A stretch of DNA of 64,000 nucleotides, taken from contig JANYKT010000063.1 of the NCBI GenBank assembly GCA_025358085.1, forward strand, positions 1 through 64,000, written 5' to 3'. The position numbers were made by a program, and so were the translations under genes. Of this stretch, positions 19,797 through 23,964 are shown in pieces (within the stretch, counting starts at the first letter, position 1; each line of letters starts with the position of its first letter). The notes beneath the pieces are model-generated. The model ran no database searches, was not told the origin of the DNA, and saw nothing but the letters and a program-made list of their open reading frames with translations. This DNA comes from Deltaproteobacteria bacterium (GTDB lineage Bacteria > Myxococcota > Myxococcia > Myxococcales > 40CM-4-68-19).

Positions 19797-22064
19797 ATGT
19801 CTGCGCCCGCGCTCGAGCCGAAGCAGCCGTTGAACCCCGCCCTGGTCGATCGCGCGCCGCTGGTCGCCGCCGCTGGCGAGGATCCTCCTCACCAGCCGTT
19901 CATCCCGGCCGACGTCGATATCCCGGAGCTGACCGTGGTGCCGCTCATCGTCGGCGCCTTGCTCGGTATCCTCTTTGGTGCCTCGAGCATGTACCTCGTG
20001 CTCAAGGTGGGCCTGACCGTCAGCGCCTCCATTCCGGTAGCGGTGCTTTCGATCACGATCTTCCGCGGCTTCAGCAAGGTCTTCCGGGTGCGTCGCGCGA
20101 CCATCCTGGAGAACAACATCACGCAGACCACCGGCAGCGCGGGCGAGAGTATCGCCTTCGGCGTCGGCGTGACCATGCCGGCCCTGCTCATCCTCGGCTA
20201 CAACCTCGAGATCGGGCAGGTCATCCTGGTCTCCGTGCTGGGCGGCATCCTTGGAATCCTGATGATGATTCCGCTGCGGCGGGCGCTCATCGTCAAGGAG
20301 GCAAAGACCCTCATCTATCCCGAAGGGACCGCTTGCGCAGAGGTGCTCATCTCGGGCGAGAAGGGCGGCACCACCGCCAAGACCGTCTTTGCCGGCCTGG
20401 GCGTCGGCGGGGCATTCGCGCTCGCTTATAAAGGGTTCGGATTCTTCAAGGACATTCCGGAGCGTATCTTTGGCAAGTGGTACGACGGCGGAAATCTGTC
20501 GTTGGAAGTCGGCCCCGAGTTGCTCGGCGTGGGCTATATCATCGGCACCCGGATCGCGTTGATCATGGGCGCAGGCGGTATCCTCAGCGCCCTGGTCTTG
20601 ATGCCGGCCATCAAGCTCTTTGGCGGCACCAGCAGCTTGCCCATCTATCCGGGCACCGAACTGATCCGCGATATGTCCCCGGACGCTATCTGGCACCAAT
20701 ACATTCTCTATATCGGCGCGGGCGCGGTGGCCGCGGGCGGCATCATCTCCCTGTTCAAGTCATTGCCCACCATCATCGGCGGCGCGATGCGGGGCATGAA
20801 GAGCCTGCGCAGCGCCACCGGCGCATCAGGCCCATTGCGCACCGACAAGGATATCCCGCTCTGGGTGGTGGGCGTCGGCTCGGTGCTGCTGGTCATCACC
20901 TGCGCGCTGGTGCCGTCCTTCAAGATCAACGTGCTCGGGGCCGTGCTGATTCTCGTCCTCGGCTTCCTCTTCGTCACCGTCAGCTCGCGGCTCACCGGGG
21001 AGGTAGGCTCGTCGTCCAATCCCATCTCGGGAATGACGGTCGCGACGCTTCTCATCACCTCGCTGATCTTCCTCGCGCTCGGCTGGGTCTCGGCTCCCTA
21101 TAAAGTCGCCGCGCTCTCGATTGCAGCCATCGTCTGTATCGCCATCTCCAATGGCGGAACCACATCGCAGGATCTGAAGACCGGCTATCTCATCGGCGCT
21201 ACGCCTTCGCGGCAGCAGATCGCCATCCTGGTCGGATCGCTCTCGTCCGCGCTGGTGCTGGGTTTCGTCATCCTGAAGCTCAATGACGCCGGAACCATCT
21301 TTGCTTCGCGCAGCTTTCCGCAGACGCAGTTCACCCAGAGCGATTACACCGGCGCCCGCGAGCACCTGCGCGGCCCCGACAAGGATCGCGATTCCGGCGA
21401 ATACAACGTCATCTGGCTGAAAGACCCTCGCGGCAGTATCCCCGCCGGCAAATATCTGGTCGATGACGGCGGACATATCAAGTACCTGGAAGACCCGGGT
21501 ATCAACGGCAAGCTCGACCACCGCGACAATGGCGAGAAGGTGACCTCCAAGTTCTCGGCGCCCAAGCCGGTGCTGATGTCCTTCATCATTGAAGGCATCA
21601 TGACGCAGAAGCTCCCCTGGGGCCTGGTGCTGCTCGGGGTCTTCATCTCGATCGTGCTCGAGCTTTGTGGAATGTCGTCGTTGGCTTTCGCCGTGGGGGT
21701 CTATCTGCCACTCAGCACCTCGACGCCCATCATGGTGGGTGGCATGGTCCGCTACCTCACCGAGAAGACCTCTCGCAAGAAGGTAAGCAATGCCGAGGCT
21801 GAGAGCGGACCCGGCGTGCTCTTCTCTTCCGGATTGATCGCCGGCGCTTCGGTGGTTGGAACGCTGGTCGCCTTTCTTCAATTGTCCGAGCCGACGCGTA
21901 ACTTCCTGCGGGTCGCCAACATGACCGAGCGGATTCCAGACTTTGCGAACAGTGACCTGGTCTCGCTGCTGCTCTTTCTCGGACTCGGCGTGATCCTCTA
22001 TTTGGTCGCCAACGAATACCTGCTCAAGAGCGAGCCTGAACATGATCACGGTTCGTCTGGCTGA
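19797..22064 (+). CDS. OPT family oligopeptide transporter
   Basis: About 755 residues with roughly 14-16 hydrophobic segments. Family motifs are clear: [28 protein letters not shown] and [21 protein letters not shown] proteins move oligopeptides or metal chelates such as iron-siderophore analogues across the inner membrane with protons. The start is ATG 19797, behind a GAGGGAG at longer than usual spacing; an in-frame start 42 bases upstream is less likely. The 3' end overlaps the GNAT gene by 23 bases. Confidence 0.9.
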
Positions 22065-22494
22065 GACCGCTGCCGAGATTGCGACTTGTCTGCGCCTGCG
22101 CTGGACGGTCTTCGTGGAAGAGCAGGGCGTGCGGCCCTCGGACGAAATCGACGCGTACGATGGGAGCCTGCGGAGCGACGCGGTGCATGTGCTGGCGCTT
22201 CTCAATGGCATTCCGGCCGGCGCGGCGCGGATGATTCTAATTGAGCAGGACGGCGAGCCCGGCGTCGCCAAGCTGCAGCGAATGGCTGTGGTGGCCGAGG
22301 CGCGCCAACGGGGCCTCGGCCGCGCGCTCTTGACCTTCCTGGAGGGGGAGGCGCGGCGGCGCGGAGCGCGCGCTCTCACGCTGGGAGCGCAGACGCACGC
22401 TCGCGGTTTCTACGAGAAGCAGGGATACCAGGCGCACGGTGGCGAATTCGACGACGCCGGGATCCCGCACCTCCGCATGGACAAGCTTGCCTGA
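22042..22494 (+). CDS. GNAT family N-acetyltransferase
   Basis: A 150-residue acetyltransferase. The acetyl-CoA binding segment KLQRMAVVAEARQRGLGRALL carries the RxxGxG/A motif, and the C-terminal RGFYEKQGYQAHG is typical of ElaA-like members. The substrate amine is unknown. It starts 23 bases inside the end of the OPT gene, in a different frame, so the two are translationally coupled; chemical modification of an imported peptide is one idea but is inference. Confidence 0.88.
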   Translation: MITVRLAETAAEIATCLRLRWTVFVEEQGVRPSDEIDAYDGSLRSDAVHVLALLNGIPAGAARMILIEQDGEPGVAKLQRMAVVAEARQRGLGRALLTFLEGEARRRGARALTLGAQTHARGFYEKQGYQAHGGEFDDAGIPHLRMDKLA

Positions 22495-22558: not shown

Positions 22559-22963
22559 ATGTTGAAGAAAGCAATACTGACAGTGGCAATGGGGCTGTCG
22601 CTCGTAACCTGCAAGGCGTTTGCCGGTGCGAGCGACGATAAGTTCGGTAGCCTGACCGTCGACCAGGTCTCGGACCTGATCGCGGCAAAAGGCGCCGACA
22701 TCTTCGACAACAATGACCGCGACGACTGGGCCAGGGAACACGTACCGGGCGCAAAGTGGGTCAAGTTCAATGGGGTCACCGCGAAGGATCTGCCGCAGGA
22801 CAAAAGCCGGCAGCTGGTCTTCTATTGCGCCAACACCCATTGACACGCCTGCCATGAGGCCGCCCGTGAGGCGGTCAAGCTGGGCTATGGCAAGGTCTTC
22901 ATCATGCCGGAGGGAATCGCCGGCTGGAAGAAGGCAAAGAAACCGGTCGAAAAGGGCAGCTGA
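22559..22963 (+). CDS. Rhodanese-domain selenoprotein candidate (in-frame TGA at 22841 read as Sec95)
   Basis: ATG 22559 opens a frame that meets TGA at 22841-22843 and then continues in the same frame to a TGA at 22961. The full product is 134 residues. Residues 1-22 are a signal peptide, followed by a rhodanese fold: DIFDNNDRDDWAREHVPGAK, the active-site strand LVFYC (Cys90), and the C-terminal end GIAGWKKAKKPVEKG. The recoded residue gives C-ANTH-U-HAC-HEAA, that is C-x4-U-x2-C, where exported rhodaneses of this type usually carry Cys. A hairpin at 22858-22876 fits a bacterial SECIS. Without Sec decoding the product would stop 5 residues past Cys90 and lose the last third of the domain. 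A pseudogene is the alternative. Confidence 0.72.
22858..22876 (+). promoter_or_regulatory. Bacterial SECIS-like stem-loop downstream of the in-frame TGA
   Basis: GGCCGCC pairs with GGCGGTC (seven pairs, one G-U) around the loop CGTGA. The loop begins 22 bases after the TGA at 22841-22843, and its second base is G. The published bacterial SECIS model asks for a short apical loop about 16-37 bases after the UGA with a G in the first two loop positions, so both conditions are met. Confidence 0.6.
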
Positions 22964-23010: not shown

Positions 23011-23853
23011 CTACGGAGTAGCAAAGGCGCGGTCGGTGCGGTTGACCGCGTTTTTTACTTTCAGGCCCCGGCGGTTGAGAAGATCGACCGTGATCTTGTG
23101 TGCGCCGCCGCGGGCCCGCTTCAGCAGCAGGGGCTTCCACTCAGTGGTGAGCGGGAGCTCGCGGCGGTCCAGGACCACGCGCACCTTGTCGCCGCGGCGC
23201 AAAAGCCTTGCTCCCGACAAATAGAAGTCAAGCACCGGAGCGCGCTGCGGCTCGGCCTGCACCGCAGAATCAGCTTCATGCTCAATCGGCTCAATCGATA
23301 GATCCTGCGCGTCCTTTCCGGCCTCGCCGATGGGGAGCACATAGGTCAGAATTGGCTTTTTCGGGTCGGGCCAGGCCACGAACTCGGCGGCTCTACCGGC
23401 CTTGCCCTCCAGCCGCGGGCCCAGCCAGAAACGCGCGAGCGCAAAGGCGTGCGGCGCCTTGACCACCTCGTGCCAGGGGCGGCAGAGCACCACGCGCAGC
23501 GCGTGCGGACCTTTGCGCAGGCCACTCAAAACCAGCGGCGCTGCGAGATCGATTTCAAGTGCGGGCTCGTTATCCACGATTAGATGCGCGTGCGGCACCG
23601 GCCCTCCGGGAGCGAGGGGGCCGAGCGCGTAACCATCGATCCGCAGCTGCACTTTCAATTCGGTGCCTTCGAGCAGCGCCAGATCAGCAGGCGCAACGAT
23701 GGCCACGACCACCTTGCTGAAGGCCTTGGCGTCGCCTTTCAGACGCAAGTCGTCCTCGGGCCGCTCCGTCTTGGGGTACTGCACATGACGCGTGCGCCGC
23801 CGGGCTTCGGCGGGAGCGGCGAGCAGCAAGAAGGCGAGCAGGATCCGTTTCAA
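23011..23853 (-). CDS. Secreted protein of unknown function
   Basis: About 280 residues from TTG 23853, chosen because it places a signal peptide (LKRILLAFLLLAAPAEA) at the N-terminus; a longer in-frame extension reads into the upstream gap. The mature region has beta-rich segments, VPHAHLIVDNEPALEIDL, then GPHALRVVLCRPWHEVVK, a pattern like domains that handle a ligand through a HAH site. The C-terminal part contains RRGDKVRVVLDRRELPL. I do not recognise the family. It is the last gene of the minus-strand run that begins with the kinase at 28485. Confidence 0.65.
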   Translation of the reverse strand: MKRILLAFLLLAAPAEARRRTRHVQYPKTERPEDDLRLKGDAKAFSKVVVAIVAPADLALLEGTELKVQLRIDGYALGPLAPGGPVPHAHLIVDNEPALEIDLAAPLVLSGLRKGPHALRVVLCRPWHEVVKAPHAFALARFWLGPRLEGKAGRAAEFVAWPDPKKPILTYVLPIGEAGKDAQDLSIEPIEHEADSAVQAEPQRAPVLDFYLSGARLLRRGDKVRVVLDRRELPLTTEWKPLLLKRARGGAHKITVDLLNRRGLKVKNAVNRTDRAFATP

Positions 23854-23964
23854 AGCGCGTGGTCTATACCATCGTGAGGTAGCTTTATTTGCTCGCCAGG
23901 CGAGACCAGGTGCGCGCCGGGCAGCAGGGCGCCGCCCGCCGTGATGGGTCATTTGTCGTCGTTA

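Follow-up and report, generated by a model that had tools for sequence, protein, structure and literature searches.

The window, by which we mean the whole 64,000-nucleotide stretch of DNA that was analysed, holds at 22559–22963 on the forward strand a gene for a 134-residue rhodanese, in whose frame a TGA at 22841–22843 (codon 95) is the sole interruption before the terminal TGA at 22961–22963. Beyond codon 95 the frame runs on as ...GIAGWKKAKKPVEKGS up to this stop, and when Cys is put in place of the TGA the translation matches the PF00581 rhodanese domain over residues 33–126, across the TGA, at 53.4 bits (cut-off 22.2). The active-site segment is FYC90-ANTH-U95-HA-C98-H: the catalytic Cys90 (TGC, 22826–22828) lies five residues ahead of the TGA, the predicted selenocysteine (Sec) closes the six-residue active-site loop CANTHU, and Cys98 (22850–22852) completes a U-x2-C motif. 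A sequence-only reading of this DNA had pointed to an in-frame TGA five residues after Cys90 and to a frame that carries rhodanese residues past it and stops normally, and both features are present. At the other end of the protein, a putative signal peptide, MLKKAILTVAMGLSLVTCKAFA (22559–22624, forward strand), was recognized by inspection from its KK n-region, hydrophobic core and A-x-A motif, with cleavage predicted after AFA; this typical signal-peptide sequence suggests that the protein is exported and periplasmic. An AlphaFold2 model built from an alignment of 26 homologues has the rhodanese fold (pLDDT 88, with residues 1–20 at low confidence) and places residues 90–96 in a loop preceding the helix 97–107; the closest solved structures include an Alicyclobacillus rhodanese domain (Z 17.4) and GlpE (Z 16.4).

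The gene is flanked by two neighbours that are conserved in the family. Upstream lies a GNAT acetyltransferase gene (22042–22494, forward strand; PF13673/PF00583) that ends at a normal TGA stop, and downstream a gene on the opposite strand (23011–23952), with no Pfam match, faces the rhodanese gene; the C-terminal residues of its product are recognizable beside orthologues L023 and L024. Within the family of the window's genome the neighbours are an OPT transporter and the GNAT gene; elsewhere, Anaeromyxobacter-like genomes have a ThiC-like gene (identified by eye) beside the rhodanese gene, and Polyangium has a protein-kinase-like gene. No operon partner conserved across families was found, and because the neighbours change from family to family the context points to no substrate.

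A phylum-wide search recovered the gene, with its TGA in the same position, from the family of the window's genome and from two further families in the order, and the genomes G030, G031 and G035 all carry it. A scan of GTDB contigs, run on a closer alignment, the first one being too diverse, added Polyangium sp. 6x1, 15x6 and y55x31, Kofleriaceae, other myxococcal metagenome-assembled genomes (MAGs) and one Planctomycetota MAG. The homologue in this last MAG (L133, 4001–4366) is a long-branch Sec form with the segment CMNEGUHSCHKA, which could reflect gene transfer or a binning error. A single-protein scan of genome contigs found no homologue, and the plasmids searched held no close relative.

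Among 66 homologues, chosen for a loop region of the C-x4-[U/C] type and close overall similarity, the column of the TGA holds Sec in 35 and Cys in 31 and no other residue, in agreement with the earlier expectation that the Sec would align with Cys in this group. Cys90 is invariant in two homologue alignments (A2 and A6), and residue 95 is invariant as Cys or Sec. The position of Cys98 varies, with Cys in 21 and Ser in 14 of the 35 Sec forms, so of the motif first proposed, C-x4-U-x2-C, the C-x4-U part holds and the final Cys is not universal. Six changes between Sec and Cys are needed on the homologue tree, three of which are forced by well-supported branches, and selection on the codons past the TGA is purifying (pN 0.15 versus pS 0.41). 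At the same locus, the orthologues L033 and L034 have TGC in place of TGA; their genomes, G026 and G027, have no selA match, and the Cys locus is syntenic, with the OPT transporter and GNAT genes as neighbours. The Sec-bearing members of the family have selA, the exception being G020, which is 61% complete and has a tRNA-Sec.

A hairpin, GGCCGCC-CGUGA-GGCGGUC (22858–22876, forward strand), lies within the coding sequence 14 nt past the TGA. Its arms (22858–22864 and 22870–22876) form 7 bp around a 5-nt loop (22865–22869, CGUGA), of which the first base is the 22nd after the TGA, a spacing of 21 nt, and the second is G. The published model of the bacterial Sec insertion element (SECIS) calls for a loop of 3–9 nt, a stem of 4–16 bp and a G among the first two bases of the loop, together with a spacing of 16–37 nt and an energy of at most −7.5 kcal/mol (PMC13188914). 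The hairpin, with a folding energy of −19 kcal/mol, fits this model, as the sequence-only reading had supposed from the loop position and its second-base G. This energy is unexceptional for the GC-rich DNA here (z = −0.53), so stability was dropped as evidence and the case for the hairpin is made from conservation. A search of the SECIS region against Rfam gave no match. All 19 distinct Sec sequences retain full pairing (133 of 133 pair cells, against at most 65% in slid controls); two pairs carry double compensatory changes and a third a GU/GC exchange. Among Cys homologues (n = 9) only 60% of the cells pair, no higher than in shuffles. In the six hairpin codons, synonymous divergence comes to 0.055 for the window's group, the lowest of 65 segments compared (median 0.45), and to 0.16, the second of 65, for a second family; in the Cys homologues it is 0.50, the 59th of 65. 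Since synonymous change is lowered only in the Sec genes, the constraint acts on the RNA and is confined to genes that use Sec. That the TGA, the frame beyond it and the hairpin are all kept in orthologues across the phylum is more than would be expected by chance.

The genome that holds the window is a 5.4-Mb draft in 217 contigs, 98% complete, and it encodes selA (465 bits), selB (283 bits) and selD (367 bits), all above curated cut-offs. Its selD (contig C203, 11625–12554) is itself a selenoprotein gene, with an in-frame TGA in GAGUACKL, the usual Sec site of SelD; this provides separate evidence that the lineage decodes UGA as Sec. The sequence-only reading had tied its proposal to selA, selB, selC and selD, and selA, selB and selD were found. 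Neither outcome that it had named as refuting, a genome lacking Sec machinery or homologues with a residue other than Cys or Sec opposite the TGA, was observed, which supports its interpretation. Rfam, a covariance model built from ten close relatives, a core pattern allowing up to three mismatches, two loose patterns and BLAST all failed to reveal selC, the gene for tRNA-Sec, in the draft assembly. Stretches of 12–18 kb around selA, selB, selD and a second SelB-like match held no tRNA-Sec. The RF01852 matches examined in this genome were rejected as tRNA-Sec: at or beside them ARAGORN places tRNAs of ordinary kinds (Leu, Ser, Tyr and others). Among the 16 relatives searched, tRNA-Sec was found at 70–78 bits in 10, five of them in the same family as the window's genome, and ARAGORN gave the anticodon TCA in all eight of the relatives' tRNA-Sec checked. 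On the relatives G020, G024 and G025, the tRNA-Sec sits on contigs of only 8–9 kb. Four drafts of the same family (G019, G021, G022 and G029) that have selA and the TGA gene likewise show no recognizable tRNA-Sec. Because tRNA-Sec is missing from the window's genome and from these four selA-bearing relatives, a gap in assembly or binning, or an unusual tRNA-Sec, must be assumed, and each is possible.

The missing tRNA-Sec gene would be expected if the TGA were a genuine stop, leaving a pseudogene or a 94-residue protein, and TGA does end other genes here, such as the GNAT gene. This is very improbable, since TGA stands at one site in 35 homologues, selection is purifying downstream of it, the hairpin is conserved and the Sec machinery is present; moreover, in the AlphaFold2 model a 94-residue form would lose the helix 97–107, the strand 113–116 and the helix 119–125. 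The open frame past the TGA would also suit an altered code in which TGA is read as another amino acid, or ordinary readthrough. We give such a reading less credence still, as what aligns with the TGA is Cys and neither Trp nor Gly, selA, selB and selD are present, and the rhodanese gene and its neighbour both terminate at TGA. The altered-code and pseudogene readings were rejected on these respective grounds. Together, these comparative data confirm 22559–22963 as a selenoprotein gene with Sec decoded at UGA95, and make it almost certain that the decoding, the SECIS element and the exchange of Sec and Cys at residue 95 are as described.

We put a probability of roughly 90% on the explanation that the gene encodes a periplasmic single-domain rhodanese in which the SelA/SelB/SelD system decodes UGA95 as Sec, directed by the hairpin 14 nt downstream. 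A Cys at the position of Cys90 is the sulfur-accepting residue of rhodaneses. We suggest that Cys90 forms an intermediate, either by accepting sulfane sulfur or by attacking a persulfide or disulfide, that Sec95 resolves it through a Cys90–Sec95 selenenylsulfide, and that an outside thiol donor then reduces this bond; the protein would thus act as a thiol/persulfide oxidoreductase and not as a plain sulfurtransferase. That Cys90 and Sec95, which bound the six-residue active-site loop, function as such a pair has about an even chance of being correct: C90 and U/C95 are invariant and C98 is variable, and the model puts 90–96 in the loop before the helix. Cys98 may assist and would not be needed.

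Two other roles for the selenoprotein were weighed against this pairing. It could be a true sulfurtransferase, with the persulfide on Cys90 as in GlpE and with Sec95 doing no more than tuning the loop or how sulfur is released; the rhodanese fold and the invariant catalytic Cys are what such an enzyme would have, and this remains a tentative second choice, because a loop-end residue that is strictly Cys or Sec suggests redox chemistry and not tuning. It could also reduce peroxides, as Sec is common in peroxidases, or serve as a selenium carrier, holding a perselenide for selenium assimilation. Rhodanese can indeed be loaded with selenium, according to work cited in PMC5877670. We regard this reading as unlikely, as the loci showed no link to sel genes or peroxide genes and export would separate a carrier from SelD; the Cys forms, furthermore, occur in genomes without selA, which makes a role in Sec synthesis unlikely.

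Returning to the Cys–Sec pair, we propose that these proteins constitute an unnamed subfamily of exported rhodaneses that bear Sec at the last position of the catalytic loop and retain the catalytic Cys. Whether they are selenenylsulfide rhodaneses acting as persulfide/thiol oxidoreductases seems to us evenly balanced, and the same holds for the view that the subfamily is widespread in Myxococcota, with outliers such as the one Planctomycetota MAG, and has exchanged Sec and Cys repeatedly, once together with the absence of selA.

With this gene Myxococcota gain a well-supported selenoprotein, and the literature searched held no paper naming selenoproteins for this phylum. The finding also flags genes that automatic annotation would truncate at the TGA. 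It offers a clean natural comparison of Sec and Cys at one syntenic locus, and its chemistry can be tested in cultured relatives (Polyangium, Anaeromyxobacter-like). A route from a sulfurtransferase fold to a redox enzyme could become visible in the Cys-x4-Sec loop.

Rhodanese selenoproteins are already known, and the C-x4-U-x2-[C/S] subfamily, the window protein included, matches no NCBIfam model above its cut-off. A 2006 list for Anaeromyxobacter dehalogenans gives 11 selenoproteins, none of them a rhodanese (PMC1794560). A 2026 review distinguishes five forms of rhodanese selenoprotein, with the motifs UxxS, UxxG, CxU, UxxG and UxxxxU, and a U-x2-C rhodanese is absent from its table (PMC13188914). 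Its rhodanese-like form 1 (PF00581, motif UxxS, WP_010941598.1; PMC13188914) resembles the proteins described here in having a rhodanese domain with Sec, and 14 of the 35 Sec homologues are likewise U-x2-S, whereas the window protein is U-x2-C; form 1 was compared by its listed motif only. More distant exported rhodaneses from Desulfovibrionales (Desulfonatronum; L157 near 5281 and L158 near 5107) have an in-frame TGA in CRDFRULLSEIA, with Sec at the same +5 position of the loop and a U-x2-S motif; upstream of them lies a tandem rhodanese that bears CGGxxCPLS motifs.

The best NCBIfam match of the window protein is TsoB (NF045694, rhodanese/DsbD-fusion-like, UxxxxU), at 49.9 bits over residues 66–132, and the two share an equal spacing between two redox residues; however, the score is far under the cut-off of 805, a DsbD-like part is lacking and the first residue is Cys, not Sec. 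The rhodanese-related (seleno)protein NF041203 (CxU) is also similar, at 40.4 bits, but this is below its cut-off of 115, and its listed motif has Sec two residues from the Cys, compared with five here. GlpE, YgaP and other single-domain rhodaneses share the fold and the catalytic Cys, and YgaP gives the top sequence match in the PDB (44 bits), its alignment showing neither Cys nor Sec at the end of the loop; from these enzymes the window protein is set apart by its putative signal peptide and its Sec.
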